In this document: in pieces, positions 8,138-52,740 of the stretch
Layout of the letters: every line of letters starts with the position of its first letter
How positions within the stretch are numbered: position 1 is the stretch's first letter
Assembly: GCA_034670405.1 (NCBI GenBank)
Contig: JAXDDX010000005.1
Location: 9,368,501-9,432,500 of the forward strand
Direction: 5' to 3'
DNA length: 64,000 nucleotides
Origin: Hoplostethus atlanticus
Taxonomy: Eukaryota; Chordata; Actinopteri; Trachichthyiformes; Trachichthyidae
Notes under the pieces: generated by a model
What the model saw: the letters and a program-made list of their open reading frames with translations, nothing else
Databases searched by the model: none
What the model was told of the DNA's origin: nothing
Program-made: the position numbers and the translations under genes

Positions 8138-8272
8138 AGTTATTTCCTATACATATGATCATTAAAATCAGTAAACAAGCAAGATGCACGCAACATATTA
8201 TGCCATCATATGTGTGTATGGTCCAGCATGTGTTTGTTTATTTGCACACGTGTGTGTCGATCAGCAGCTTAC

Positions 8273-8491
8273 CAGTCCTGAAGCAAAGAAGACAGCCAGC
8301 AGAGCCAGGCAGGCTCCCATCACTATGAGCAGCAGAAACACAATGAGGGGATGCTGCTGGCTCATACAGTAGTACGACTCATACAGCCAGTCCGGGGACC
8401 TGTTCCTCCTTTGCTGCCCTGCTCCTCCTCCTCCGGGCTCCCCTGCCCGGTCCAGGAGGTACGTCTTCCTCCTTATCGCCTCCTGCCACAT
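8273..8491 (-). CDS. adcy2: Adenylate cyclase type 2, coding exon 1 (start codon)
   Basis: This is the first coding exon: 73 codons from ATG at 8491 to the donor CTG|GTAAGC. It begins MWQEAIRRK, a start shared with mammalian ADCY2. A basic cytosolic segment and the conserved DWLYESYYCMSQQHPL follow, then the first membrane helix (IVFLLLIVMGACLALLAVFF). The segment between them is richer in Gly and Arg than I recall for mammals. I chose 8491 because family members start there, but the frame stays open upstream to an ATG at 8806, so an extended N-terminus cannot be excluded. Phase 0 at the donor joins exon 2 in frame. It is the enzyme's N-terminal anchor, with no catalytic residues. Confidence 0.94.
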
Positions 8492-8990
8492 GGATCTGGG
8501 AGTCGAGAAGGAGGAAGAGGAGAGCGGGAAGCTGGAGGAGGAGGAGGTGGTCGTGGCAGAGATAGTAGTAGTTTCCACCACAGATGAGGAGCAGTTGCCT
8601 TGTTTTGCTCTCCTGCTATTGTTGTTCCTGTTGGACCCCCTGGTGCGAGAGCTCCTGATCTCCAGCGTATCCTTGGGTTCCTCCTCCACCTCCTCTCCTA
8701 AGTCCTTCAGGCGGAGACAACTGACAGCAGAGTCTGAGGCTGAGGCTGAGGCAGTGTGCGCCGGCCGGAGAGGTGGCAAGAACGCACCGAGGGTAGAGCG
8801 CAGCATCCTCCTCTTTCTCCTCCTGCCAACATGTTGGAGCAGGGAATGAAGGGGAGCGCAGACACTGAGCGCTCTTTAGAGAGAGAGAAAGAGAGGGGAA
8901 AAGTGGGAGGGAAGTGGAGGGAAAGGGGAGGGAGGGAGGGCCAAGGGGGAGGGGAGGAGGAAGCAGAAGGCGCAGCAGCAGCAGCAGCAA
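8492..8990 (-). other. adcy2 5' UTR / promoter-proximal region
   Basis: The sequence directly upstream of the adcy2 start is GC-, CpG- and trinucleotide-rich, unlike its AT-rich surroundings. This fits a 5' UTR and CpG-type promoter. It is open in the adcy2 frame for 105 codons from ATG 8806, coding for a low-complexity Ser/Thr/Glu-rich string. That openness probably follows from base composition. No TATA box is obvious. A transcription start cannot be placed from sequence alone. Confidence 0.4.
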
Positions 8991-26500: not shown

Positions 26501-27040
26501 TATATAGCTATATAGCTGGTATGTGAGCTTTTCTGACAACAAATCTAGTAAATTCGAATGACTTTGTCTTTTTAAAAATTAAAAGCTGCCCTCTCTTATC
26601 TTCCACAAACAGAGAAAGGCATGGCTTGGCACAATATGTTTGACGATATTTTGTTGATCTATTAATCTATTTCCTTGTAGCAAGCCAGGCTGAGACGCAA
26701 ATTAAGCAATTTAAAGTCACCCACTCCTGTCATAACAACCACTTCCCAATGACACTTGAAGAAGATCTGGATCTATGCCATGGAAAATTAATCATCCAAC
26801 AGTCAATTTACCTGTCACTCTCATCCTGTATGCTGGCACTGCGGGCTATATTCAACCCAGTTGTCAGACTAAAATATAATCTTCAAGCTTCTTTTATGAC
26901 ACCCCATAATGCCTTTCATCTTGTCTGAGACCTTATATTCAGGGGAGGATAGACCTAGCTGCAATATACAAATTCTGGTCCAGTGTTTGTTTGATTTTCA
27001 GTCCTTGTACCTGAATCTTGGATCCACAGGACTGCATTAG

Positions 27041-28590
27041 TTTTTTTTACAATTGCTAACAAGCGTTTACCTATACTTAAGATACTTTTTCTAAACTCTT
27101 AACACAGCAACACACCTACATCACACAATTAGCCAAATAGTTAATTTTGTGCTCAAAACCACATTTTGTTAATTAAACACCAACTCTACATTTCAAAATG
27201 CAAAAAAACTTTCTCTACATACACTAACTCAAAACACGGCAAACCCGACTCAATATCAAATCATTCTTTCAAAACACTAGCACATGTTTTCTATCCAAGA
27301 GGAACATATAGTCAATCATAGCACAATGACTTTAAACTTTTTAACAGTTGATGGCATTACAAAAACTGCATTACTTTTCATGTTTCAGTTCTAATTGCAT
27401 ACAATATTTATTTATTTATTTTGTATTTATTTATTTATTGAATTGGGACAGTGCACATTAATCAACATATCAGCATTACACATCAATGTAAATGTGCCGG
27501 AATTAGCACAATTGCTAAATTTCATCCGTATAGACAATATGAAATCCATTGTTTTTTATAATTCAGTTTCCTTTTACTGTAAACCACTGTTTTGGTTTAG
27601 TGTTGAATGTGTGCATTTTTGGCAACATACTATCTATAAGTGAATGAGTCATCTTTACTTACTTACTGTACAGTAGAAAAAAAGTGACAAGAAGTGACAG
27701 AATTGCTGCAGTAAAAGCTTTATTAGCAACATGAAATTGCTGCCAGTGATGAACAAAAAATCCAACATACATGGCCTTTGGTTCCAAATGTGTAAAAATA
27801 AAATACACAAATACAGTAAAAAAGGCACAGAAGGGAAAAAACACAAAAATGCAAAGTCCTGTTCTAATCTATACGATCTTCAGCATTTGGCCACATGTTC
27901 TCGTCCACATCACATCTTATGTCGTCTCTCGCTATGCACCTTGGATAGAAACGCTTGGCATGCACAGTATGTGTAAATGCTTTTCAGTATGGCCTACTGT
28001 ATGTACTGTAACCCATGTTTACATGTAGAGTAGCATAGTGTAAAACTCACTATAGAACAAGACATATTGGATAGACACCATACCTGGACGTATTGGTGCC
28101 GGTGCTGGTGACCCGCTCACTGTTCCTTTCAAAAGGAACTGTGTACAACTGTTTCATTCGAACTCTGTGTTTGGTCTACTTTACACAACTTAGATCAGCT
28201 ATTTCTCAATGTTTCAGTGATCTGTTCATTGAAAAATGCTTATCAGCTGTTTCAATAAAGCTTTTGAGCTGCTGTTGTTGCAGATGTAGAGGCTTTATAC
28301 TATATTTAAGGTTTTGAACATTAGGTTTTCATTTCTGGCATACTGTGTGCAAGCATTTGTAAATAAGACAAGAAAGATCCATCATTTTGGTATTGGGTAA
28401 GCTTGTATGTAAAGAAGATCTAAGCATTTTAGAAATGTGTTAATTGATTGCATATTCTGTGAAAACAACATGAATTGTGTTAATGGTACGGTCCACAACC
28501 GACGGATGTTGTGCTAATTGTGTTTAGAGCTTTGAAAATGTGACTACAGATTGGACAAAAGGATGTTAGCGATTGTAAAATTTTTTTAAA
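27041..28590. mobile_element. Mariner-like non-autonomous element
   Basis: The left end ('ttttttttacaattgctaac') and the right end ('gttagcgattgtaaaatttt') are inverted copies, bounding about 1.55 kb. A related terminus ('ttttttccaattgctaac') recurs at about 30470-30490, so the family is present more than once. No transposase frame survives. The internal frames at 27.7-28.0 kb are low-complexity. Classification as Tc1/mariner-like rests on the terminus type and is tentative. Confidence 0.45.
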
Positions 28591-28843
28591 ACAAATGTAT
28601 AGCCATACCACATATTATTAAATGCCAATATCAATATGATAACATGATCATGGCATTAAAAATCTAATCCACCAATCCTGACAGCCTGAACATTCACATT
28701 ATGGCATCACAAAGAATATTCTATAGAACTCCATCCAGTGTTGCAGAGTTTCTGATCTCAGAGGCAAAATCACAAACAACAAGACCTGAAACAGCGACAC
28801 TTGAACTGCCTTTGACTAGAAATACTTCTTTCTGACTGTAGAA

Positions 28844-28877
28844 ATGAGCCCCAACCTTTCATTAAATCCAGCGTATG
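28844..28877 (+). CDS. Poly-SIM protein, exon 1
   Basis: A short first coding exon of eleven codons plus one base, from ATG at 28844 to a strong donor (TATG|GTGAGT). It joins in phase 1 to the exon at 29018, giving ...NPAYVWYFEHPWENQ. The donor, the acceptor and the continuous frame together support a real spliced gene. Upstream non-coding exons may exist. I do not recognise the N-terminal peptide. Confidence 0.6.
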
Positions 28878-29017
28878 GTGAGTTTTCAACATTTTTATAT
28901 GTGTTTAATAAACTAACAACAAAAGGGGCAAAACAAATCAGAATACAACTGGGTGTGTGTGGCCCATCTAGCCATGTCTTCACTGGTGATGAACTAACTC
29001 TCTTTTTCTTCTTTTAG

Positions 29018-30218
29018 TCTGGTACTTTGAACATCCCTGGGAGAACCAACTACCGATCATAATCTCTGATAGTGAGGTAGAAGATGAATCTCCTGAGGTG
29101 ACTGATGAAGAGAACTCTCCATCAAACTCATCCTCAGAGTCAATAGAGGAGGAGGAGATAGTGGAGAATCATCTGGCCCCACCTGTCATCATCATAACAT
29201 CTGACAGTGAGGAGGAGGAGAAGGAGGAGGAGGAGTTAGTGGGGAAACATCTGACCCCACCTGTTATCATCATAACATCTGACAGTGAGGAGGAGGAGAA
29301 GGAGGAGGAGGAGTTAGTGGGGAATCATCTGGCCCCACCTGTTATCATCATAACATCTGACAGTGAGGAGGAGGAGGAGGAGGAGAGGGGGGGAAATGTC
29401 TGACCCCACCTGTCATCATCATAACATCTGACAGTGAGGAGGAGTTAGTGGGGAAACATCTGACCCCACCTGTCATCATCATAACATCTGACAGTGAGGA
29501 GGAGGAGGAGGAGGAGATAGTGGGGAAACGTCTGACCCCACCTGTCATCATCATAACATCTGACAGTGAGGAGGAGGAGGAGGAGTTAGTGGGGAAACAT
29601 CTGACCCCACCTGTTATCATCATAACATCTGACAGTGAGGAGGAGGAGGAGGAGATAGTGGGGAAATGTCTGACCCCACCTGTCATCATCATAACATCTG
29701 ACGGTGAGGAGGAGGAGGAGGAGATAGTGGGGAAACGTCTGACCCCACCTGTCATCATCTTAACATCTGACAGTGAAGAGAAGGAGGAGGAGGAGATAGT
29801 GGGGAAACGTCTGACCCCACCTGTTATCATCATAACATCTGACAGTGAGGAGGAGGAGGAGGAGATAGTGGGGAAATGTCTGACCCCACCTGTCATCATC
29901 TTGACATCTGACAGTGAGGAGGAGCAGGAGTTGCCAGAGTCACGTTGCCATCATACCTCTGAAAACTATGATGCTGATGATGAAGATGAGGATGAGGAGC
30001 TAGCTCCCCTAGAGTCTGATCTGGACTCTGACACGTCATACAACCCTGTTGTGAGCTGGAAGTCTCCCAGTCCCATGGCTGGACCCAGCAGAGGCATCTG
30101 CTCTGGACTGGCCAGAGTCTCCAGTAAGAGAAGCAGGGAGGAAGAGGAGAATGAGGATGAGGAGGAGGTGAGGCCCTCCTTCTCCAATACTGGACTACAT
30201 TTAGTAATAAATGAGTGA
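29018..30218 (+). CDS. Tandem SUMO-interacting-motif (poly-SIM) protein, exon 2, frame broken once
   Basis: The exon begins after a polypyrimidine tract and TTTTAG. A first motif (LPIIISDSEVEDE) leads into at least eleven copies of a 17-25 residue unit with core TPPVIIITSDSEEE. Three consecutive Ile plus a Ser-Asp-Ser-Glu acidic tail is a textbook SUMO-interacting motif with casein-kinase-2-type Ser sites. Copies differ mainly in the number of Glu codons and in His/Arg/Cys after GK. A one-base loss in a G run at about 29386-29393 ends the first frame at 29403; copies 4-11 continue in the next frame. The tail is acidic, with a basic patch (SSKRSREEEE), and ends at 30216-30218. A GTGAGG donor at 30168 could splice onward. 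By inference the protein would bind poly-SUMO in the nucleus. SIMC1 or RNF4-like proteins are distant functional analogues, not proven homologues. Confidence 0.6.
29173..29925 (+). repeat. Coding minisatellite, eleven ~50-75 bp units
   Basis: Each unit has the core 'ccacctgtcatcatcataa' followed by 'catctgacagtgagg' and a variable (GAG)n run. Lengths change in multiples of three except at the G-rich break near 29390. Synonymous and first-position changes (cat/cgt/tgt after 'gggaaa') are shared among non-adjacent units, which suggests unequal exchange or conversion. The antisense frame is open across the array only because of its composition. Confidence 0.9.
30206..30211 (+). terminator. Possible polyadenylation signal
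   Basis: An AATAAA hexamer overlaps the last codons of the poly-SIM frame. It is unusually early for a terminal exon. If used, cleavage would fall about 20 bases downstream, right after the stop. Confidence 0.25.
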
Positions 30219-30408
30219 AAACTCAAGTTGCATGTTGTGTGACATTGATTCAGAATTGGAGGATGATTGGAAGTGTGATCTTCCTTCTTCACCTATATAA
30301 CTATATAACTAGAAATAAGAAACACGGTTGGATGGCAAAGGCTGTGGACTTGAAGGAGAAGTTGAGGTATGGGATTAAGGAGTGAGAAATGCTTGCGGCT
30401 GGGAGGTT

Positions 30409-30410
<2 letters not shown>

Positions 30411-30447
<37 letters not shown>
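30411..30447. repeat. CA microsatellite
   Basis: About 18 CA units downstream of the poly-SIM gene. Confidence 0.95.
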
Positions 30448-30451
<4 letters not shown>

Positions 30452-30622
30452 CCTAGATAATTTAATTACAGTTTTTTCCAATTGCTAACTCGCATCGGTC
30501 AATACTGAAGCCACATTGTCAAAACTCTTCATACAGTCTGCATTACCAACATGCATCTTGGCCAAACAGTTAATCTCACATCCAAAACTCACTCAAACCA
30601 CCAAAACACTTCATACATAGAT

Positions 30623-30800
30623 GCACCACCTGAAGTTCAACCTCAACAAGACTGAGCTGGTGTTCCTCCCGGGGAAGGGCTGCCCGCTCTGAGGCCTGTC
30701 CATCGCCATTGACAATGCGGACCACAACCTCCCTTCTCCGATCTCTACACTGGCTCCCTGCATCCAGTTTAAGACTCTGGTGCTAGCCAATACCATAAAA
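30623..30800 (+). pseudogene. L2/Maui-type LINE reverse transcriptase relic
   Basis: Reading the plus strand gives HLKFNLNKTELVFLPGKG, then a stop, then GLSIAIDNA, and after a jump LAPCIQFKTLVLANT. These match conserved C-terminal RT/linker stretches of fish L2-type LINEs (the 'LNKTE' and 'FKTLVLA' motifs). Internal stops and missing sequence show a short, decayed fragment. Confidence 0.55.
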
Positions 30801-31061
30801 TTCTGTGTAAACCTCCCTATCTGCAGATTGAATAAACTGCAACTACATGTTCTAGCATTAGCTTTGTAAACTTGCAATACTGCTGAATTACAGTAAAAAG
30901 AAATAGGTATAGTGATTATTTAATGGCTGTGCTAGTAAAATGTTAAGCTTGCATGTGTACCATGCAGTGCACCATGCAGGGTGTATTATACAGTAGAGCA
31001 GAGAATAGCTGACTGCTTATTTAAGTCTATTTTTAGTCTAATTCCAAAGCACTGCCCCTGG

Positions 31062-31143
31062 GAATAGACAATCAATATCTTTGCAAGTTTATTAATATAG
31101 GAGTGAATAGACAATCGATATCTTTGCAAGTTTATTAATATAA
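31062..31143. repeat. Short tandem duplication (~43 bp x2)
   Basis: 'gaatagacaatcaatatc' plus 'tttgcaagtttattaata' occurs twice in a row with one or two differences. Confidence 0.85.
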
Positions 31144-31228
31144 ACAGAACCCCCTGTGACTTTCACTGTTTATTTGTTTTGTCAGCCACCAGAGGCTCTT
31201 GTAGGGTTGTTGGTGTGATGTGCATTGA

Positions 31229-31257
31229 GTGTGTGTGTGTGTGTGTGTGTGTGTGTA
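31229..31257. repeat. GT microsatellite
   Basis: About 14 GT units. Confidence 0.95.
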
Positions 31258-32218
31258 GGCATAAGTGGTTTATGAAACCAATTTTCAGGTTTACATACCA
31301 ACATTACAAGACCACTCGGGTTAGGAGACCACTTTTGATGGTCTCGTAATTCGGGGAATTTAAATTGTTATAATTATTGAATAATAATAATTTAAAGCAT
31401 TATTAATACATGTATGATTACTACATTACTGGTATTATTAATTAATATTGCCATTTGACTGTTATAACCCTCCCCACGCTTTTTATGACCTTTACAAATA
31501 TGGGCTTTACAAACCATGTGTATGTGTGAACTTCCAACAGTGCCACCAACAGGTGGGAATTGGTATTGCAAGGTATACACACTGGCGCCAAATTATACAC
31601 ATTTACCCGCCATATTTATGTCAAGAAGATTTTCCGTGCTTGGAGCAGTGTGGATATTAGCATTGGAGCTCCAACAATTCTTTGGGATCGAAAATCGAAG
31701 GTAAGCCCTTAATATTATATATTTTGTACATTAAATGAAAACTATATGTCTGATAGCCTCAACAAAGTAGCTTTACAACTTATTTAATTAATTGTGTTCG
31801 TTAGTTAACAAGATTACTCAGAAATACTCTCAAGACTGTCAATGCAGTGAGTTATTTGCTAACTACACCCACTTGTATACAAGCTTTATCATTTATTATT
31901 TTATTATTAAAACGTGTCCTCTCATTCGCTTCCATTCCATTCATCTATGGCGCATTAGGTGGCTGCGCCATGACCTGAAAATTACTGCTAAAATAAAAAT
32001 AGCTAAAAAATATCGCTAGCTAAAAATAGCTGCACACAAGCCAGGTTCATTCTCATCCAGAGGCCGCAGTGATTACATGTGTTTTCCCCTCTCCTTCACC
32101 TGGCCCTTTTTTATATTCATCCTTTGTGTTCTGGTGTGCGTGATTGACTACGTAAGTTATGACTGTTGTTAAGAGGGACATTATTAGTAGTTGAAGTTAA
32201 TATGTTTGTAGTTATGTT

Positions 32219-32395
32219 CGTCCATGGTGGTACCCCGCGACCGCCGGCTCTAGGTCGGCTTGGGAAGGCCCAGGGTGAAGGTGGCTTGCGGCTCTGGCCG
32301 TGAGCTACAGCACCCCTCGCCCGGCCGGACCTCGCCGCTTCCCAGGGCCGTGGACTTAGTGCTCGCTGCGCCCTCTCTCCCTGCCCGCAGATGAT
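32219..32395 (+). other. Possible 28S rRNA (expansion segment) fragment
   Basis: This GC-rich block includes 'gaccgccggctctaggtcgg', 'ctggccgtgagctacagc' and 'gggccgtggacttagtgctc'. It resembles a variable expansion segment of vertebrate 28S rRNA and is quite unlike the AT-rich surroundings. It would be a dispersed rDNA-derived fragment or the head of an rRNA-derived SINE, not a functional gene. Identification is from memory of rRNA sequence. Confidence 0.4.
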
Positions 32396-32540
32396 AACGT
32401 TAGCCTCGTTGGTGCTGCACACATGCCAGGTTCATTGTCATTCAGAGCCCGCAGTGATTACATGTGTCTTTCCCTCTCGTTCACCTGGCCCTTTTTTATA
32501 TTCATCCGTTGTGTTTTGGTGTGCGCGATTGACCACGTAA

Positions 32541-33073
32541 TGCCGGGGTTAGACTACACGATATTTTTGTCTTTTACGATGGTTACTGTGTAGTATTAGG
32601 CGATTATAGAGTGTCTCTCGGCCGTGACTTGGCCGAGAGACATGACAGACTACACGTTGGTCACTGACCAACGGCGTGCGTGATGTCATCGGAACAAGAA
32701 TGTAAACAAACAATGGCGTCCGAAGCGGTATGTATGATACTGGCTGTCTTGTGTTCCGCAACGCCGAAAAAAATTAAAGATAAAACGACTATGGACCCGT
32801 TCTTGGGTCGCACGAAGAGAACAGTATGAAACCTAGAAATGAAACCTAAATGTAGCTAGCTGGTTAGCCTCCACGGTGGTGTTAATGGGGGTGTTAATGC
32901 CAGAGCTCGGCAAACCTTTCCTCGGTTTCATAGTTCTACCTAGCGGCACCAACAACTTCATTCCTCTTTCGCTTCGCCATGTTTGTTTATGAGGCGTCCC
33001 AGATGCGGCGTCAGTTGTCGTGCACTGTCACACTACACAAGATAAAACGATCGATTGCAGTCTGACCCCGGCA
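32541..33073. mobile_element. MITE, 533 bp, TAA target duplication
   Basis: The left terminus TGCCGGGGTTAGAC and the right terminus GTCTGACCCCGGCA are inverted repeats with one mismatch. The 3 bp TAA on both sides (32538-32540 and 33074-33076) is a target duplication: removing the element restores the sequence of the neighbouring intact repeat copy. TAA target sites fit the PIF/Harbinger group. There is no coding capacity. Confidence 0.75.
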
Positions 33074-33324
33074 TAAATTATGACTGTTGTAAAGAGGGAC
33101 ATTATTCGTAGTTATTTCAATTTGATATGTTTGTAGTTATGGGAAGCTGACAAGCTAATGCATTTGCGAGTGCTTATGTTAACCGGCTTTCTGCTGTCGG
33201 CGTCAGTTTTGGAGCCAGGTGTAACTCCCGAAAGGGGTTATTACTATTATAAAGGGTTATTACTATTATACTGCTACTATTATCTGTGGAGACTGACTTG
33301 ACATAATATTTTGTAGTGAGCGTG

Positions 33325-33433
33325 ATGAGGAGTAGTACCAGGGGACTAAATCCTCTCCAAGATGCAGAACAAAACATCAAGTTGGGGAAAGATAAAGACT
33401 TCATTACATGGAGATACATCAATCACACCAAAG
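33325..33433 (+). pseudogene. KMT5A-like SET protein, N-terminal exon relic
   Basis: A 36-codon exon from ATG 33325 to a consensus donor (AAAG|GTAAGA). It contains RGLNPLQDAE and ITWRYINHTKG, which resemble the segment leading into the SET domain of the multicopy fish KMT5A-like (SET8-like) genes. Known members continue with the 'GYGVF' SET start, but the next ~300 bases contain no such exon, so the central SET domain is missing. Together with the broken exon at 33733 this marks a decayed gene copy. Confidence 0.5.
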
Positions 33434-33732
33434 GTAAGATTTTTTGTTTTAAACCTTGCGTTTGCTAATGCAAGTTAACCTCTGTTGTGTTAGATAAAGA
33501 ATGCTCCATCAGAGATACAGCTGTGACAAGTTAATATGCAAAACATGCAGAAATGAATGCATGCAATGAATCCAATAATGTGGATGACATGTTAGTGTCA
33601 GTGATGGGTGGATACATCTTGAAATAGACAAAGTCTGAAAGATCTAACATCAATACAGATGTGATCTAAGTTTCATCTAAATGTTTTTTATTAGTTATTT
33701 GATTTTCCTTTCCTTTCCAATCTCATTATTAG

Positions 33733-33877
33733 AAAATGTACTTTTGTATGCATATGTAAAGTGAAGTGGATGGTATGCCCCATCTTTGTTTATTTTCCAT
33801 TATGGACATACGGGAAGGTCAAGAGATTACGTATGAGTATGGAGGAGTTGGCTTGCCATGGACAGGAAATGTCCGAG
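33733..33877 (+). pseudogene. KMT5A-like SET protein, C-terminal SET exon relic
   Basis: After an ATTAG acceptor the frame reads a stop (TAA 33757), then SEVDGMPHLCLF and REGQEITYEYGGVGLPW, ending at a strong donor (CGAG|GTAAGT). The 'EITYEYG' and following 'PW' match the last conserved motif of SET methyltransferase domains, which in active enzymes helps bind the cofactor and substrate lysine. The in-frame stop and the missing middle exons argue against function. Confidence 0.55.
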
Positions 33878-34115
33878 GTAAGTAGTACCATTGACTTTTA
33901 TTGAATAATTAAAGTATTTTTTAAAGGGGGGGTATTGTACTCATTTTGGGCTATTTAAACTGTTCCTGGGGGTCTTTACAAGACGTTTGTGAAGTCTATA
34001 TCAAAAGAAATCCTAAAACCAGCTTCTGTGGTGTGTGTTTCAGTCGCTCATTTTATCCATTGTAAAGAACAGACTGTTTTGAGGGCGTGGAGGCCTCACG
34101 CCGTGAGTGAGGCGG

Positions 34116-35877: not shown

Positions 35878-35964
35878 AATGAATCTGAAACCAGTGAAGA
35901 GGAAGAATCAGATGAACGTGATCCAGAATATGTTCCAGCCTCAGAAACTGATACAGAAGAATGA
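35878..35964 (+). CDS. Acidic small protein, exon 2 (hypothetical)
   Basis: After TTTTAATCAG the frame gives 28 residues (NESETSEEEESDERDPEYVP...) and a stop at 35962. The Glu/Ser-rich string with 'DPEYVP' resembles an acidic linker I associate with uncharacterised multi-domain fish proteins, some linked to KMT5A-like SET domains. It joins in phase 0 with the exon at 34237 but not with the SET exon at 33733 (phase 1). It may be a remnant of a longer gene. Confidence 0.35.
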   Translation, partial: NESETSEEEESDERDPEYVPASETDTEE

Positions 35965-35985
35965 GGTTCTGAAAAAGGAAGTGGT

Positions 35986-36648
35986 TCACTTAAAGTAAAG
36001 CAAAGAGCTAATGGTGAAAATAAAAACTATGAATATTGTATCCATTGCAGGGGTATCAGTGAGTGGTAGTAGTTTGGTTGGTTTGTTATATTTAAAATCA
36101 CCAATGGTGCTCAAGGCACAGTGTGATATGTACTCTGGCCACTTTGCCCGATAAAGCTTCTGTAATGCTTCTGAGGATTTAATTAGGTCCTCGTTTTCAG
36201 CCATGAGAGCATGGCAATGAATAACGTCACTTACTTTTAACAAGCCTTGCATTTTCAATGCAAGGCTTGGAGTTTTGTAACTGTTCTGATCCTTGTCAAA
36301 TCCTGCAGTCTCTATTACTGCCTCAATTACATTCATGAAATTTCTTGGTTTTATAGCATCCTCTAAGGTTAGGATTGGAGACTTTTTGCGCATGGTCTGT
36401 AGGAAACTTCCAAGCTGATGGATCTTTTGGTGGATATAGTCATGTTTTGAAGGATCATGTCTATGTTTGCTGTAAAGGGACTCGGCAAACCGTAGAAGGC
36501 AAAAGTCATTGCGAACTACACTTGCAATGTCATCCTCATGCATACGGCTTAACATCTTAAGCACCCCGTCTTCAACAGTGCTTGAACATGCTGACTTGAC
36601 CACTGATGCTTTGCCAAGCAAGCACTCTTTTTCTGCCTTGGTGTTCAT
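35986..36648 (-). pseudogene. Conserved fish domain of unknown function, partial, inverted
   Basis: A 220-residue minus-strand frame with patterns such as MHEDDIASVVRND, SLYSKHRHDPSKHDY, TPSLALKMQG and LSTIGDFKYNKPT. I recognise this as a domain repeatedly seen in large uncharacterised fish and invertebrate proteins, often with zinc knuckles and sometimes with KMT5A-like SET domains. Its enzymatic role is unknown to me. The upstream zinc-knuckle part is absent and the foldback element begins about 80 bases upstream, so it is truncated. It faces the plus-strand acidic exon, suggesting an inversion if both came from one gene. Confidence 0.45.
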
Positions 36649-36739
36649 GGTCCTCTGGCTTAGTACAACCCCAATGTGTTGTACATTTGTTTCAAAAGTT
36701 GTCTTCTATATAACATGTTTGTTGCGGGGGGGGGGGGGG

Positions 36740-37289: not shown

Positions 37290-38920
37290 CAATGCCTATA
37301 AAAAGTATTCACCCCCCTTGGATGTTTCACCCTTTTGTTACTTTTATACATGAAATCATGGTCAATATAATTTGGCTTTTTTGACAAGAATTTGCAAAAA
37401 AAACCCTCTTTAATATCAAAGTGAAAACAGATTTTTACAAACTAATGTCAATTAATTAAAAATATATAAGGTAAAGTAAATGATTGCATAAATATTCACC
37501 TCCTTCAGGTCAGTATTTAGTAGATGCACCTTTGGCTGCAATCACAGCACTGAGTCTGTGTGGATATGTCTCAATCAGGCTGGCACATCTGGACACTGCA
37601 ATTTTTCTCCATTCTTCCTTGCAAAACAGCTCAAGCTCTGTCAGGTTGCTCGGGGATCGGGCGTGAACAGCTCTTTTCAAGTCCAGCCACAAATTCTCGA
37701 TTGGATTGAGATCTGGGCTTTGACTTGGCCACTTCAGAACATTCACCTTGTTGTCTTTGAACCATTTCTGTGTAGCTTTTGCTGTATGCTTGGGGTCGTT
37801 GTCTTGCTGGAAAATAAATCTTCTCCCAAGTCGTAGTTCTCTTGCAGACGAGTCAGATTATCCTCCAGGATTTGGCGATATTTTTCTGCATTCATGTTCC
37901 CCTCTACCTTTACAAGCCTTCCAGGGCCTGCTGCTGAGAAGCATCCCCAGAGCATGATGCTGCCACCACCATGCTTCACGGTGGAGATGGTGTGTTTGTG
38001 GTGATGTGCAGTGTTTGGTGTTCGCCAAACATAGCGTCTAGTCTGATGGCCAAAAAGCTCAATTTTTGTCTCATCAGACCAAAGAACCTTCTTCCAATTG
38101 ACCTTGGAGTCTCCCACATGCCTTTGGGCGAATTCCAGGCGAGATTTCATATGAGCTTTTTTCAACAGTGGCTTTCTCTTTGCCACTCTCCCATACAGCT
38201 TCGACTGGTGAAGAACCCGGGCAACAGTTGTTGTATGTACAGTCTCTCCCATCTGAGCCACTGAAGCTTTTAACTCCTTCAGAGTGGTCATAGGTGTCTT
38301 GGTGGCCTCCCTCACCAGTCTTCTTCTTGCCCGGTCACTCAGTTTGTGAGGACGGCCAGCTCTAGGCAGATTTAAACAAGTGCCATACTCCTTCCATTTC
38401 TTAATGATGGATTTAACTGAACTCTGTGGGATGTCCAGTGAGTTGGAAATCTTTTTGTAGCCATCTCCTGACTTATACTTTTCAATGATCTTTTCTCTGA
38501 GTTGCTTGGAGTGTTCTTTTGTCTTCATATTGCAATTGTAGCAGGAATACCGATGAACCAGAGACTGGACCTCCCAGACACAGGTGTTTTTATACTACAA
38601 TCACTTGACACACATCAACTGCACTCTGGTGATCTCCATTTCACTAATTGTGACACTGCTGGCATCAACTAGCTGGACCTCTGTTGAATTAGGTCAGTCA
38701 CTTTAAAGGGGGTGAATATTTATGCAAACACTTATTTTACACTATATATTTTTAATTAATTGACATTAGTTTGTAAAAATCTGTTTTCACTTTGACATGA
38801 AAGAAGCTTTTTTTGCAAATTCTTGTCAAAAAAGCCAAATTACATTGACCATGATTTCATGTATAAAAGCAACAAAAGGGGAAAACATCCAAGGGGGGTG
38901 AATACTTTTTATAGGCATTG
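37290..38920 (-). mobile_element. Tc1-like transposon, 1,631 bp
   Basis: The element begins CAATGCCTATAAAAAGTATT and ends with its inverse, with TA target duplication on both sides (37288-37289 and 38921-38922). The inverted repeats are about 200 bp long, with the 'aaaaatctgttttcac' motif repeated near their inner ends, the IR/DR layout of fish Tc1 elements. It interrupts the LINE reverse transcriptase frame, whose last codons run into the inverted repeat. Confidence 0.95.
37510..38528 (-). pseudogene. Tc1-family transposase, one frameshift
   Basis: The frame from ATG 38528 gives a paired-type helix-turn-helix (REKIIEKYKSGDGYKKIS), a second DNA-binding part with the GRPHKLSDRARR linker, and the first catalytic Asp (WSDETKIELFG). 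A one-base loss near 37825 shifts the frame, ending it at 37743. The second Asp motif (about 37795-37815) and the C-terminal SPDLNPIENLW with the catalytic Glu, on to 37510, lie in another frame. The total length of about 340 residues fits a DD34E Tc1 transposase. One lesion and intact termini suggest fairly recent activity. The protein would cut and paste the element at TA sites. Confidence 0.9.
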
Positions 38921-38922
38921 TA

Positions 38923-40900
38923 CATAATCACTTGTGTTAACTAAATGTCTATCTTTCACTTGCTGGAACCTGCTTTTCAACAGTTTTGGCCTCTTTTTGG
39001 CCTGCAAGTTATAAAATGAATGAAGAACACTTATGGCTATTATATCCTTAATGGGTGACCATGCCAGTATTTTATGTCGTTCTTCAACAGGGGTGTCACT
39101 CGGACATCTAAGAATAATTCTTGCAGCCTTATTTTGTGCAATTTGGAGCCTACTGATTTCTCCAACTCCGGCATTACCCCAAGTGGCAGCACAATAGTTC
39201 ACCTGACTCCCAATTAGAGCATGAGTCACTTGTCTTAGTATTTTTATGGGTAAGTATTCAGCTATTCTACTAACCATGCCAGCAATCCTAACCAGCTTCT
39301 TACATAGATAAGATATATGTGATGTCCAAGACAGGCAACTATCAAGTTGGACACCTAACAGTCTGTTCTCATCTACTTGTTCAATCATTACACCATCTGC
39401 CATGAGCTGCAAGCAGGGGTGTGCTTGCCTTTTTCTCACAGAACCCATAAGCATTACTTTTGTTTTCTTCATATTCAGTAAAAGTTTGTTAATATCAACC
39501 CATTCTTTAATTCTTTCTAGGTCTTGTTGCAGTGATGTCTGTATGTCTACACTTGAATAACCTGGTGCATACACAGTTGTATCATCTGCAAAAATTGTAA
39601 TTTGTGATTGGATTAGTGCACACGAAATATCATTTATATATATCAAATAAAGGAGAGGCCCAAGACAACTGCCTTGAGGCACTCCGCACTCTATATTCAG
39701 AGGAAAAGAGAAAGATCCATTTATATAAACAGATTGTGTTCTTTCAGATAAATAGGAATTAACCCAATCAAGAGCGGTTTGTTGGAACCCATAATGAAAG
39801 AGCTTTTTCAGTAATATACTATGATCTACCAAATCAAATGCTGCACTAAAATCCAAAAATAATACACCAACATATTTTCCCAAATCAATTTGTTCTAACC
39901 ATTGATCTGTCATTTCGATAAGGGCTGTCCCTGTGGAATGGTCCTTGCGGTACGCATGCTGATTAACAGAAATTAAATCATTAGTTTCCATATATGACCA
40001 AATCTGTTTACTAATTATACTTTCCAATATTTTACTAAGTATAGGTAAAAGACTAATGGGGCGACTGTTCTCTGGTGAGAAAGGTTCTTTGCTATTTTTT
40101 GGAATTGGACATAGCTTAGCTTCCTTCCATGCCCTAGGGAACTGCCCAATTCCAATCGACCAATTATACAAATACCTCAAGGGGGCAGCAATCTGAGGAG
40201 CAGCATACCTCAATAACATGTTGTCCATTAAATCATAGCCTGTAGCTTTTCCGTCAGGAAGTGACTCTAGCAATTTCATAACCACTTCAGTTGTTACCAA
40301 GGATAGGGAAAATGAACACATTTTATTTAACATGATATTATTGTCAATCAGATTAATGAGAGATTCTTTAGAGTTAGAAGAATCAAACATTTTTCTTAAT
40401 CTGTTGATTTTGCTTTCAAAATAAGCGGCATAATGATTGGCAATGTCAGCAGGCTTTGTGATTATTCTTCCATTCTCTTCAACAAATGATGGGTATTGTG
40501 CAACATTTGTTCCCAGCAAGCCCCTAACTGTGTTCCATGTTTTTTTAGAGTCATTTCCACACTCCATAAATGCCATTTTATAAAATGAAGCCTTCTTATT
40601 TCGATTCAATTTCAATGCATGGTTACGTAGTTTTCTATAGATCTGTTGGTCAGATTCTAACTTTGATCTTAAAGATACAGCTTTTGCCTTATTTCTCTCC
40701 ATAAATACTTTATTAAGTTCCTCATCTATCCATGGAGCAGAACAGGCCTTAACAGTTTGTTTCCTAACTGGAGCATGCCGATTCATCACTTCGGTTAAAA
40801 GTTTTGTGAAGCATTCATAGGCATGGTCTAAGTTGTCCTCTAAATATATGAATTCCCAGGGAATTATAGCTAAATCCCTCTTGAATTCCTCACAGTTGAA
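38923..40900 (-). pseudogene. LINE ORF2, reverse transcriptase part
   Basis: About 626 residues open from 40789, with the in-frame sequence extending up to a frameshift near 40900. RT motifs are visible in order: SRPISLLPILSKILE, LDFSAAFDLVDHSILL (first catalytic Asp), GVPQGSCLGPLLYLIYIND, and FADDT with the paired Asp. The thumb/C-terminal region (LGVQLDSCLSWTSHI, VNYCAATWGN) is typical of CR1/L2/jockey-type elements. The frame is cut at 38922 by the Tc1 insertion. Target-primed reverse transcription would be its role if intact. Confidence 0.85.
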
Positions 40901-41352
40901 TCCTTAAAACTCCTCTTTACTATTACTCTGGGTGGTCTTTTTGGAATCTTGGTTATTTTAGTTATAAATACAATATCATGGTCCGACCAGCTAACAGGAA
41001 ACACACAAGCACTTGAACACTGTTGCAGTACACTAGTAAAAATCAGATCAATGCACGTCTCAGTACATACACCATTCCTTATTGAAGATCTTGTAGCATT
41101 TCTTACCATCTGTTTCATATTGCATCCCTCTGTAAATCTCAGTAATTTTGTTTTGTTAGTATTCTTGTTATCACTCCAATTAATATTCAGATCTCCCATA
41201 AAAAACACTTCCTTATTGTCATCAGTTGCATTATCTAGACTAGTACATAAATCATCTAAATAGTTCACATTTGAGCTCGGGGGTCGATATGCACATCCAA
41301 TTATTAGAGGTTTTTGATAAGGTAGATGCATCTGTACCCATATCATATCCAT
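40870..41352 (-). pseudogene. LINE ORF2, endonuclease part (5' truncated)
   Basis: About 160 residues with C-terminal APE endonuclease motifs: IIGCAYRPPSS, FFMGDLNINWSD and the catalytic SDHDIV. The first half of the endonuclease, with the metal-binding Glu, is missing, because the sequence switches to the foldback arm at 41352. A one-base shift near 40900 separates this frame from the RT frame. Confidence 0.8.
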
Positions 41353-41925
41353 AGAGACACAGGCAGGTGGCCTGTCTCTGAGTTAACTGGCCAGCAGGGA
41401 CATTTTATTTACACCACAGCAATAATACGACCTGGTATTGACGGCCGTGTGTAGTGCCGTCTCCCTCTCCCAAGACTGCCCCAGTCCACCAGGCTTCCAG
41501 GGGCATCCCGCCCCAACCCTGACTGGGCAGCCCTTCCAGGCTGCGCCTGGCCGCATCCTCCGCGGAGCTCGGTCGGTCATTGCAACCGGTGACGGCCGCT
41601 CTCCCACTCCGTCCCTCTCGCTCGCGCCCTCGCCTCCGTCCCGGCACCCCAGCCGCAGACCCCACTCAGACGCTGCTGGCTCAGCTCCCTCTCCACAGTC
41701 CGACTCGACTCCATTATATACTAGGTGCAGCCTCCTGTCAGACTCGGTCACTCACTCAGTCAGCCTCTCACACTGATGCATGCTCACTCACACATCCACA
41801 CGCAGCTATCAACTATAGCTATCAATAAAGGCATAAACAGGCCACAAAAAATATCTTAAAATAAAAATAAATAAAACAAAAAATAAATAAAAAAGACCCA
41901 GCTGCAATCAGGATTAATTGGCCGC
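41352..41925 (-). repeat. Right arm of foldback element (LTR-like content)
   Basis: This is the reverse complement of the left arm with an extra GC-rich segment (about 41401-41690). Read on the minus strand it contains a TATATAATGG box, then GC-rich sequence, then AATAAAATG, then the inner arm end. The order promoter, leader, polyadenylation signal is LTR-like, but no retroviral-type genes follow. The part from about 41822 outward is repeated in degraded form at 43880-43974. Confidence 0.75.
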
Positions 41926-46735: not shown

Positions 46736-46811
46736 TCCGCGCAATACTGGTTTGGTAAGTTTTCAGTAAGTTCATTTTCTGAGTGGCAGTTTTCTTTGTG
46801 TGTAAAACAAA

Positions 46812-47606
46812 ATGGAGTTTAAAATAGATGTGTTTGCTACAAGTCCGTCTTTTGATAAATTGGAGCGTTGCAGAAAAACAGACTTATTGATTGTTGCCAA
46901 GTTTTTTGATATTGATGTGCCTTCTGGGTCGCGTAAAGCAGAGATACTTAAGGTGCTGTGTGACGTGCTGGTGGAGAGAGGAGTGCTGCCTGAACCTGCT
47001 GCCGGTGTTGCATTAGGTGAGGTGGATGCGACAGTAGGGGTTGCCCGCGCTGACGCACCAGCTCCAGGCATAGATCCGTGTGTGCAGGCAGGTATGTCCA
47101 CTGAGGACTTGCGACTGACTCTCCGTATCAGGGAGGTGGAGTCGCGGAATAAAGAGCTCGAGTTGGAGACGGCGCACTTGCGCCTGAAAACACTCGAGTT
47201 GGAGAGGAGACAGCCAGCTACGGCCGCCTCTCCTTTGTTTGCACGCCAGCCCTCTGATCCTGCTTCTGTTGGCTTTGATGTCAGTAGGCACATTGCGCTA
47301 GTTCCTCCATTCAGGGAATCGGAGGTAGATTCGTACTTTAACGCTTTCGAGCGTATTGCAGCAACGTTAAGTTGGCCGAAAGACGTTTGGTCTCTGCTTC
47401 TGCAATGCAAATTGGTTGGTAAAGCTCAAGAGGTTTGTGCAAGCCTATCTATTGAACAGAGTTTGAATTATGATGTGGTAAAAGCAACTGTGTTGCGTGC
47501 TTATGAGCTTGTCCCCGAGGCTTATAGGCAAAAGTTTAGAAATTGTGAAAAAAACTGCCACCCAGACATATGTCGAATTTGTGCGAGAGAAGGGAGTGCT
47601 GTTTGA
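46812..47606 (+). pseudogene. Gag N-terminal frame, frameshifted
   Basis: 264 codons from ATG 46812. The N-terminal part has an alpha-helical SAP-like start (MEFKIDVFATSP, DLLIVAKFF). The middle contains a charged coiled-coil-like stretch (about residues 95-135), and the C-terminal half begins a capsid-like/SCAN-like region. At an A run near 47545 the reading shifts by one base and this frame ends at 47606, while capsid coding continues in the frame of the next entry. In an intact element Gag forms the virus-like particle. Confidence 0.8.
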
Positions 47607-50184
47607 CAAATGGTGCCAGGCCAGTAAAGTTGACGATTTTGATAAACTTAGGGAACTTCTTCTGTTAGAAGAATTTAAGAAGTGTTTGCCAGACAACATC
47701 TCAGTTTATCTAAATGAACAAAAAGTCACGTTGATTGCCCAGGCTGCCGTTTTAGCTGATGAGTTTGTCTTAACTCACAAGAGTGTATTTTCATCGTCGT
47801 TTCACCGTGACACTATGCCAATGAACTCAGGTAAAAAGATGAGGTCTCCAAAATCTCCCCGCCGTATTACTTCTGTCTCTGCCGATAACAGAGAATGCTT
47901 TTACTGCCACGAATTGGGTCATCTTATTGCAGTCTGCCCTGCTTTAAAAAGAAAAGGCCAAGCATCAACCAGTAAAAGTCCAGCAGGTGTCGGCCTGGTT
48001 CAAACTATCCTTACCCCACAGTTGTTGACGGCTGACACTGAAACTGTCACAGATTATAGCCCGTTCATTTTCCACGGTTTTGTTTTGCTCAGTGGAGAGA
48101 AACGCGTTCCGGTTACAATACTTCGAGACACTGGTGCTTCTCAGTCGTTCATTTTAGATGCTGTATTACCGTTTTCAAACGAAACTTTGTGTGGCTCCGA
48201 TGTGTTAGTGTGGGGAATTAAGATGAGCATTTTAAAAGTTCCCTTGCATAATGTGCACCTCCACTCATCTCTGGTGTCTGGTCTTGTTAGAGTGGGTGTA
48301 CGCTCGCAATTACCAGTGAAAGGAGTGTCTTTCATTCTAGGTAATGACCTGGCTGGAGGGAAAGTGTTTCCTCCCCCTGAAGTCCCTACTTCTGACTCGC
48401 CTACCGCTGCACTCTGTTCTGCCACAGTGTTTCTTGCTTGTGCCGTTACGCGCGCACAGTCGCGTAAACTAGGTGAAATAGTGGATCTGTCAGATTCCTT
48501 CCTGATGTCACCTGGAGACTGTGGTGATGATCACCCAGTCCCCTCCGACAAGCATGGGGATACTGTTAGTGTTTCTGTAGCCCTACTGCCTGCTGATGCC
48601 AGTTTATCGTTGGATGTAGACAAAGAGATGTTTGTTAGTGCGCAGCAGCAAGATCATTCTCTGTCTAATTGTATGTCCGTGGCAACCACGCAGAATTGTT
48701 CTAGTAAACCTGTTGCATACTTTATTGATGATGGCATATTGATGCGTAAATGGATTCCCCCTAACACTGATGATTTGGGCTGGAATTCAGTCAGTCAAGT
48801 TGTGGTTCCCACCAGCTATCGCTCGCAAATTCTTGCTCTAGCACATGATAACCTTGCCGGTCATCTAGGGGTTAAGAAAACCTACCAGCGCATCCTACGC
48901 TATTTCTTTTGGCCAGGAATTAAGGGCGATGTCACCAGGTACTGTCGTTCATGCCACATATGCCAACTCGCTGGTAAGCCGAACCAAACTGTTCCGCCCG
49001 CCCCACTGCATCCAATTCCCGCAATTGGAGAACCATTTGAACATGTACTATTGGACTGTGTTGGGCCATTGCCCAAATCAAAATCCGGTAATCAATACAT
49101 GTTAACTATCATGTGCGCCGCTACTCGCTACCCAGAGGCCGTACCATTACGCACGCTCAAGGCCAAGCAAATAGTGAAAGCGTTAGTCAAGTTCTTTTCA
49201 ACTTTTGGTTTACCCAAAAGGATCCAGACTGATCAAGGGAGTAACTTTATGTCTAAGGTGTTTGCCCAGGTAATGGCAGAATTAGCTGTAAAACACCAAA
49301 AATCAAGTGCTTACCATCCTGAATCCCAAGGTGCCCTCGAACGTTTTCACCAAACTCTTAAGGTCATGCTGCGTAAGTACTGTCTTGAGTCTGGTAAGGA
49401 GTGGGATGAAGGTCTTCCACTTATTCTTTTTGCAGTTAGGGAAACTGCACAGGAGTCCTTAGGTTTTAGTCCTGCAGAATTAGTTTTCGGCCATACCGTG
49501 CGCGGTCCTTTAAGACTCCTCAGAGAAAAATGGCTGTCTAAAGAGACTAGTCCTGATCATAATGTGTTGGACTACGTTAGTTCGTTCCGTGAAAGGTTGC
49601 ATGCTGTGTGTGATTTGGCCCGAAAGAATCTGTCCGTTGCACAACATCAAATGAAGACCAGATACGATGTGAAAGCCGTTGAGAGAACTTTCCAGCCAGG
49701 TAATAAAGTTCTTGCTTTACTGCCCATCCTTGGATCTGCTCTTCAGGCTAGATTTTGTGGTCCATACACAGTTGATAGTAAGCTCAGTGACACTGATTAT
49801 GTAATCAGTACCCCCGATCGCAAACGGAAAACCCGTGTGTGCCATATAAATATGCTGAAGCCGTATTTTTCCCGTGATGTCGTTTCTCCTTCGCCCCCAG
49901 TTGTTCCCGTTGTTTCTATTGCCACGGTTCCCCCACAGTACTGTCCAGAGGTAGATGGTCTACGTGAAAGTAGTGGCTTGAAAAATTCTGAAGTGCTGAA
50001 CAACCTCAATTCCCACCTGTCCCACTTGTCTGACGCCGGTCGCACTGATATTACCGATCTTATCAATAATAACCTCACCTTGTTCTCAGACAACCCAACC
50101 CAAACTACCGCTATCTTCCATGATATCGATGTAAAGGGCCATAGTCCAATTAAGCAGCACTCTTACTTTTGTTACCCCGGATAA
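47497..50184 (+). pseudogene. Gag C-terminus, protease and integrase (pol part 1)
   Basis: An 895-codon frame. After the capsid end comes a CX2CX4HX4C zinc knuckle (CFYCHELGHLIAVC, 47896-47937). A retropepsin active site follows (LRDTGAS, about 48121-48145). An integrase follows with an HHCC zinc domain (about 48839-48966) and a D,D35E core: D in LLDCVGPLP, D in QTDQGSNF, E in GALERFHQ. A GPY-type module (FCGPYTV, about 49755) closes it. It then enters the start of RT (IFHDIDV) but loses frame at an internal deletion and stops at 50182-50184. Placing integrase upstream of RT is the diagnostic oddity. Confidence 0.9.
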
Positions 50185-50602
50185 CTTTTGTCAGTATACT
50201 GTGATGCCATTCGGTTTAAGGAACGCCCCAGCAACTTTCCAGAGGCTGATGAACAAAGTCCTGGCTGGTGTTCCAAATTGTGAGGCATATTTAGATGATG
50301 TGGTGGTCTACTCCGCTACGTGGTCTGACCACCTAGAATCTTTGTCAGTGGTGTTTGGACGTTTGCGCGCAGCTTCGCTCACCCTGAATTTGGCCAAATG
50401 TGAGTTTGGTAAGGCCACTGTGACTTCACTGGGTAAACCAAGTTGGTCAAGGGCAAGTGCGCCCTATCGCAACAAAAGTACAAGCCATACTAGATTACCC
50501 CGTCCCTCAGTCAAGACGCTCACTCCGCCGGTTTCTCGGTATGAATGGTTACTACCGAGGATTCTGCAAAAATTTCGCTGCAGTCGTCGCTCCCCTCACT
50601 AG
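50165..50602 (+). pseudogene. Reverse transcriptase, N-terminal half deleted
   Basis: Coding resumes in another frame with FVTPDNFCQYTVMPFG, then RNAPATFQRLM and the catalytic YLDDVVVYS (about 50284-50310). The sequence that should precede it, including the fingers and the first catalytic Asp, is absent: the RT start is joined directly to the mid-palm region. This is an internal deletion, estimated at roughly 300 bases from the usual size of the domain. A further one-base insertion near 50440 ends useful coding in this frame. Confidence 0.85.
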
Positions 50603-51098
50603 TCTGGTTAGTCCGTCTAAACCGTACGTCTGGTCATCGGCGTGTCAATCCGCCTTTGCATCCGCTAAAGCCCTTCTCTGTAACTCGCCTGTGCTCGCGG
50701 CCCCCGACTTTCTACACCCGTTTAAGCTGGAGGTAGATGCCAGTGCTTGTGGAGCAGGTGCCGTGCTCCTACAGGCAGACACACAAGCTATTGACCACCC
50801 AGTCTGTTACTTTTCAAAAAGATTCCACAAACACCAACTCAACTACAGCACGATTGAAAAAGAGGCCCTTGCGTTGTTGCTCGCGTTGCAACACTTTGAG
50901 GTCTATCTTGGCTCCAGTTCACTACCGATCACTGTGTATACAGATCACAACCCATTGGTGTTTTTCTCGCAGATGCAAAACTCGAATCAAAGGCTTGTGC
51001 GCTGGTCCCTGATGCTGCAAGACTTCAACTTGCACATCAAACATAAGAGGGGCGTGGACAACACTTTGGCTGATGCCCTGTCCCGAGCCGTTGATTAA
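50440..51098 (+). pseudogene. RT C-terminus and RNase H
   Basis: Third pol frame, ending at TAA 51096-51098. It holds the RT connection (RRFLGMNGYYRGFCKNFA) and an RNase H domain with LEVDASACGAGAVL (first Asp), STIEKEALAL (Glu) and YTDHNPLVF (Asp), ending DNTLADALSR. These residues are intact, but the upstream lesions prevent expression as one polyprotein. Confidence 0.88.
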
Positions 51099-52241: not shown

Positions 52242-52475
52242 GATGAATCGATCAGATCCATGATCGACCTCTCGGGCTGCTTAAATAAACTGTGTATAAA
52301 TGTGCACGCGCAATTATCTGGATTGCTTGAGCCTGGCTCGGTTTAGCCCGATCACGGTAGCTTGACTTGGGCTTTGTGGAACCGATTTAGCCCCGATTGA
52401 TTTGTTAGGTTAATTCAAACCAGGCTTGCGAGGTTAATCGCCGCTTTTCTAAGCCTGCTTTGTGGAACATCCCCC

Positions 52476-52740
52476 AGTAAGTGGCTAGATTTGTGTGTTG
52501 TGTGTAAACAGACCTCATAAATACAACTGTCCCCTTAGACCAGTAAGTGGCTAGATTTGTGTGTTGTGTGTAAACAGACCTCATAAATACAACTGTCCCC
52601 TTAGACCAGTAAGTGGCTAGATTTGTGTGTTGTGTGTAAATAGACCTCATAAATACAACTGTCCCCTTAGACCAGTAAGTGGCTAAATTTGTGTGTTGTA
52701 TGTAAACAGACCTCATAAACCCAGTTGCCCCCATACACCA
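52476..52740. repeat. 66 bp minisatellite, four units
   Basis: The unit 'agtaagtggctagatttgtg' ... 'cccttagacc' is repeated four times with a few substitutions. A single unit precedes the Harbinger-like element (about 42257-42309). The antisense open frame over this array is an artefact. Confidence 0.93.

Follow-up and report, generated by a model that had tools for sequence, protein, structure and literature searches.

Among the described proteins with SUMO-interacting motifs (SIMs), which bind the groove of SUMO, PML has one; multi-SIM poly-SUMO binders prefer chains to mono-SUMO. As published, a SIM has a core of four residues, at least three of them aliphatic (Val, Ile, or Leu); acidic and phosphorylatable residues contribute, and an early proposed pattern was Ser-X-Ser (PMC12751080). 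In PML and DAXX, a Ser adjoining the SIM is described as phosphorylated, with CK2 as the kinase (PMC4276917, PMC12295420); in SIM2 of DAXX, the modified stretch is pSer737-Asp738-pSer739, and CK2 phosphorylation is reported to raise SUMO1 affinity ∼30-fold (PMC12295420). RNF4 binds chains by avidity (PMC3901395) and is reported to need acidic residues between SIM2 and SIM3 (PMC4083429). SIMC1 (C5orf25) binds SUMO2 polymers, its tandem SIMs lying in a disordered N-terminal region (PMC9708086), and TOPORS is credited with five SIMs plus one putative atypical SIM (PMC11183266). Engineered poly-SIM proteins serve in studies of SUMO-driven condensates; one synthetic polySIM, in which (GGS)4 linkers connect 10 PIASx SIMs, phase-separates with polySUMO (PMC10859935). 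The excerpts of open-licence PMC papers among the matches listed contained no natural protein with at least 10 tandem SIMs and no fish multi-SIM array.

We analyzed a 64,000-nt window of the Hoplostethus atlanticus genome, in which an original prediction had placed a spliced gene coding for at least 11 tandem SIMs. The DNA itself shows the motifs, the signals of the intron, and the reading frame (Table 1). Chances are even, in our judgment, that the locus is a gene for a protein, comprising two or more exons with a recently expanded coding minisatellite in exon 2, and that its product would be a very high-valency SUMO binder.

TABLE 1 Features of the SIM array locus (positions are those of the window)
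Feature	Position	Strand	Details
Exon 1, coding	28844..28877	+	MSPNLSLNPAY + 1 nt, phase 1, starts at ATG
Intron, GT-AG, 140 nt	28878..29017	+	Splice-site scoring
Exon 2, ATG frame	29018..29403	+	First motif and repeats 1 to 3; TGA 29401-29403
Divergent first motif LPIIISDSE	29050..29076	+	Older copy outside array
Array of 11 repeats	29179..29930	+	Core PPVIIITSDSE followed by a Glu-rich tail; the usual linker is [IL]VGK[HRC]LT
Second-frame ORF, 283 codons	29367..30218	+	Repeats 4 to 11, then an acidic tail containing KRSR at the C terminus; stop codon 30216-30218
Lesion between repeats 3 and 4	29383..29399	+	G7 run 29387-29393, array frame lost
Possible 5' splice site GAG/GTGAGG	30168..30169	+	Phase 0, rank 9 of 3807 GT; alternative exon 2 end
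AATAAA, possible poly(A) signal	30206..30211	+	Overlaps ORF end

All 11 cores of the predicted array are present, starting at 29180, 29258, 29336, 29407, 29467, 29539, 29608, 29677, 29746, 29818, and 29887 (TRF score, 981 to 1025), but they do not share one ORF; the divergent first motif is also present. The cores read PPVIIITSDSE, except that Leu replaces the third Ile in two of them and Gly replaces the second Ser in one. Accordingly, the four-residue core is VIII in 9 of the 11 repeats, VIIL in 2, and PIII in the first motif, and SDSE is found in 10 repeats and the first motif, with SDGE in the remaining repeat. Every repeat and the first motif have at least three Val, Ile, or Leu residues in the four-residue core and acidic or phosphorylatable neighbors, and as candidate SIMs they match the published definition by sequence (PMC12751080). 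Within each frame, the cores lie 20 to 26 residues apart, and 44 residues separate the first motif from repeat 1.

Within the window, the motif patterns match at this locus only. A degenerate codon pattern for PPVIIIT had nine matches in the window, against none in 100 dinucleotide shuffles; it finds 9 copies and not 11 because the other two carry Leu. A SIM-like pattern with Ser/Thr-Asp-Ser/Thr had 11 matches in the six frames of the window, namely, the first motif and 10 of the 11 repeats (the Gly copy falls outside the pattern), whereas 30 mononucleotide shuffles averaged 0.03 matches and never had more than 1, a comparison in which the tandem copies are not independent. In all 11 repeats, the position at +3 from the first Ser of SDS/SDG is acidic, for the second Ser this holds in 9 of 11, and 27 CK2-like [ST]xx[DE] sites are spread across both ORFs.

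The clean GT-AG intron that had been proposed in front of the array was confirmed by splice-site scoring on the plus strand of the window with hand-written weight matrices. The acceptor ranks first of 4159 AG and the donor (TATG/GTGAGT) seventh of 3807 GT, and no other donor-acceptor pair 70 to 250 nt apart equals this one. By eye, the intron also contains a CTAAC branch-like site and a long pyrimidine tract. In-frame stops are present upstream of the ATG at 28844, and an upstream exon could still exist, since a fair acceptor (rank 99 of 4159 AG) lies at 28842, just 5' of the ATG. At the other end, the predicted span of 28844 to 30218 is right for the ORFs, but the strong donor at 30168 makes the 3' end of the gene uncertain. 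The AATAAA is weak by itself, because the plus strand of the window has 76 of them.

That one ORF encodes all of the motifs was not confirmed; the prediction had overlooked a frame break. The core-to-core spacings are 78, 78, 71, 60, 72, 69, 69, 69, 72, and 69 nt; as the spacing of 71 nt is the only one that is not a multiple of 3, the reading frame is broken after repeat 3. No single open frame runs through all of the motifs, the break falling at 29387-29393: four motifs lie in the ATG frame, and eight motifs with the acidic tail lie in the second ORF. The lesion reads AGGGGGGG, where other copies have ATAGTGGGG or TTAGTGGGG and the first copy has ATAGTGGAG. At the lesion we find GAGAGGGGGGGAAATGT, and repeats 8 and 11 have GAGATAGTGGGGAAATGT at the same place.

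Several ways around the break were considered. Exon 1 cannot be joined directly to the second frame, because a TGA (29364-29366) closes that ORF just 5' of 29367. Splicing is unlikely to rejoin the frames, since no internal donor within 29180-29949 scores above 5. The G7 run forms G_GGG_GGA, which we take to be the layout of a −1 slippery heptamer; we found no support for its use. A frameshift-promoting RNA structure was rejected: the 331 nt from 29370 to 29700 fold worse than shuffled sequences (z, +2.9), and none of the 100 shuffles was less stable. Nonsense-mediated decay is not expected for an early stop in a last exon. With exon 2 as the last exon, the literal prediction from the sequence as written is therefore a four-motif protein of 139 residues, encoded by exon 1 and the ATG-frame part of exon 2. 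For a form with 11 + 1 motifs to exist, the frameshift must either result from misassembly or be missing from other alleles.

We are evenly divided on whether the frameshift is a sequencing or assembly artifact in a G-rich repeat, with the genome encoding 12 motifs in frame. This possibility is about the lesion alone and does not conflict with the locus being a gene for a SUMO binder. About three changes (counted by eye) are clustered within 9 nt and create an unbroken G run, and the other linkers vary by just a few substitutions; minisatellites, however, also show clustered natural events. The plus strand has 8 G-runs of at least 7 nt but 1 such C-run (binomial P = 0.039), an excess that is not significant at a threshold of 6 (11 versus 6; P = 0.33). 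The plus-strand G-runs at 1916, 36726, and 63172 are 15, 14, and 22 nt long, and C-runs never exceed 7 nt; these long G-runs are possible assembly artifacts.

Alternatively, an ancestral SIM gene may have decayed, its array broken by a real frameshift, which would leave a pseudogene or a short four-motif protein. The break between repeats 3 and 4 is what decay would produce, and mobile-element remnants are abundant around the locus; at 33.7-33.9 kb there is also a SET fragment, KMT5A-like and incomplete. Yet the intron signals are still near-perfect, the 283-codon ORF continues 3' of the break with no further stop, and the cores are still nearly invariant, and we therefore regard decay as unlikely, albeit a serious contender.

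The coding potential of the locus was assessed from its composition and from differences among the copies. The nonrepeat C-terminal stretch is open for 99 codons (chance, ∼0.006 from composition) and the N-terminal part for 53 codons (chance, ∼0.04). That the repeat lengths are multiples of 3 carries little weight, because slippage of GAG trinucleotides keeps the frame without selection. Counting against a gene are the frame break, the lack of relatives in our searches, and the transposon remnants nearby. Among the 11 core codons, 2 vary in the amino acid encoded, compared with 5 of the 7 codons in the linker (Fisher P = 0.049, with the frameshifted linker left out and copies that are not independent). 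The cores have four replacement and two silent changes over 24.9 and 8.1 sites, respectively, and the linkers have seven and none over 15.2 and 5.8 sites, a tally too small to show purifying selection by itself. IIISDSE, common to the first motif and the repeats, differs between them by three silent changes and no replacement in seven codons, although this stretch was picked after the fact and leaves out the Thr codon found only in the repeats.

These differences bear on whether the repeats have anything to do with SUMO. An acidic hydrophobic repeat protein could act without it, for example, by binding histones or transcription factors through its Glu/Asp-rich tail, and the resemblance to SIMs would then be a by-product of the minisatellite. 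Both ORFs have a pI of 4.05, with long Glu runs and an acidic C-tail, as such a protein would have. We nevertheless consider it decidedly unlikely: the aliphatic core and Ser-Asp-Ser are less variable than the linker, and both are retained by the first motif, which is not repeated.

Database searches returned no relatives. Among the best 7989 candidates scored for the second-frame ORF, none had an E value of ≤0.001, and N-terminal residues 1 to 85 gave 348 candidates, none at E ≤10. The C-terminal region, together with the nearby SET and acidic pieces, gave 3761 candidates, again none at E ≤10, with short query pieces and a limited candidate length. As the latter search did not return even a fish KMT5A-like match, the protein database probably lacks fish, and missing relatives therefore say little. 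In viral contigs, a protein-based scan gave 600 pattern matches with no relative among them, and a pattern scan gave none. The repeat unit had no match at E ≤10 among PDB sequences in a set of chains of at least 20 residues.

Pfam matches within the ORFs were weak, had nothing to do with an Nse5-like domain, and were rejected as sums over repeats. For the second-frame ORF (E ≤1), FleQ reached 23.0 bits (cut-off, 22) with no single stretch passing, and Response_reg and five other families stayed under their cut-offs. For the first ORF, Response_reg, DUF7227, and FleQ were under their cut-offs, although one FleQ stretch passed at an E value of 1. When these frames were scanned at 5000 residues, no match of this kind appeared.

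The donor at 30168 raises the question of whether the array belongs to a larger gene, as the N-terminal region of a longer protein, through splicing to downstream exons such as the KMT5A-like SET pieces or an acidic one at 35878. Besides the high rank of this donor and its phase of 0, a phase-0 acceptor at 35878 opens NESETSEEEESDERDPEYVPASETDTEE. That piece, however, stays open for just 28 codons before a stop, and an AATAAA lies at the end of the second ORF. Among acceptors scoring ≥3, up to 45 kb, we found no convincing phase-0 exon 3' of 30168. For the SET alternative, the fragment at 33.7-33.9 kb (EVDGMPHLCLFSIMDIREGQEITYEYGG) has KMT5A as its best PDB match (E = 0.0004, 28 residues), but in Pfam it covers profile positions 73 to 105 of 105 and falls below the cut-off, and the possible SET exon at 33319-33432 has no PDB sequence match. 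We consider a larger gene improbable, and the SET fragment is taken as a separate remnant.

The KMT5A-like SET pieces span 33319-33878 on the plus strand, where the middle of the domain was not seen. One of them, RSSTRGLNPLQDAEQNIKLGKDKDFITWRYINHTKGK, has no PDB sequence match and is possibly an upstream exon of the same SET gene. The acidic exon-like piece (plus strand, 35878-36705 region) adjoins a 239-codon minus-strand ORF, which resembles a Crypton-like family present in multiple copies in fish; its Pfam match is subthreshold only.

Mobile elements and repeats occur elsewhere in the window. On the minus strand, 37743-38594 encodes a Tc1-like transposase (HTH_Tnp_Tc3_2, HTH_SB, and DDE_3), and 38909-41382 encodes a reverse transcriptase (RVT_1) that is presumably LINE-like. 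At 46806-51098 on the plus strand, ORFs of retrotransposon type occupy several frames; the matches there are SCAN, integrase H2C2, rve, and p58 C-terminal. A 66-bp tandem repeat at 52474-52719 (3.7 copies, 97% matches) lies within a 125-codon minus-strand ORF. Closer to the array, 27000-33500 contains 23 inverted-repeat pairs, of which 20 are CA/GT runs. One other pair, 27567-27582/30888-30903 (16 nt, 94%), lies on either side of the gene and was considered as transposon ends and rejected as probably due to chance, with no clear target duplication by eye.

Two further regions lie on the minus strand. In a frame read through stops at ∼18.2-18.5 kb, PF13873 (Myb/SANT-like DNA-binding) matches above its cut-off (E = 9e−6). 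An ORF end at 8264-8527 looks to us like the first exon of adenylate cyclase 2 (ADCY2); its 88 residues had no Pfam or PDB sequence match, and this label is unconfirmed because the PDB search was empty.

The absence of a RING domain from the prediction held up: in the three plus-strand frames of 20.0-35.0 kb, no RING was found in Pfam at E ≤0.1, where the subthreshold SET fragment was the only match. Several SIMs per chain, as in RNF4-like SUMO-targeted ubiquitin ligases, are present, with four in the ORF as written and eight in the second frame. Like RNF4, the array has clustered SIMs with acidic residues in the linkers, which are Glu-rich here; RNF4 differs in its RING and in its count of four SIMs, of which the two central ones are less widely spaced (PMC3901395, PMC4083429).

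The other described systems each share part of this organization. Like the repeats, DAXX SIM2 has an aliphatic core and then Ser-Asp-Ser, but DAXX is described with two SIMs, and the folded parts of DAXX and PML are absent from the array gene as seen (PMC12295420, PMC4276917). SIMC1 resembles the array in its tandem SIMs but has an Nse5-like domain, and an array of near-identical repeats is not among the features that the available part of its source describes (PMC9708086). TOPORS also has many SIMs in one protein, but it is a RING ligase, and the excerpts consulted do not present its SIMs as a repeat array (PMC11183266). The synthetic polySIM has about as many SIM-like motifs per chain as the array; it is engineered, with a PIASx core and neutral linkers, whereas the array linkers are acidic, and its phase separation with polySUMO was measured (PMC10859935).

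If the locus encodes a SUMO binder, each repeat, with four aliphatic residues, Thr-Ser-Asp-Ser, and a Glu run, would act as a phospho-SIM of the DAXX/PML type. The protein is predicted to be disordered and acidic and would most likely rely on avidity to bind either poly-SUMO chains or several SUMOylated proteins together, and the Ser residues after the core are likely CK2 sites that would strengthen SUMO binding. As no enzyme domain was seen in the parts examined, the product would serve either to scaffold nuclear bodies rich in SUMO or as a sink in competition with SUMO-targeted ligases. Transcription, disorder, phosphorylation, and role, like SUMO binding by the array, are suggested here by the DNA and its translation.

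Tentatively, we propose that this is a natural counterpart of the poly-SIM scaffolds, with 11 or 12 near-identical phospho-SIMs whose copy number changes through minisatellite mutation, which would make SUMO valency heritable and polymorphic; this idea is doubtful but worth stating. Should the frame truly be broken, the locus would be the record of a lost or shortened multi-SIM gene. If the proposal is true, valency would set the threshold for SUMO-rich nuclear condensates or for blocking SUMO-targeted ligases, and ∼12 uniform SIMs in a repeat-expandable array would open valency to study in a living vertebrate whose natural alleles provide a dose series.
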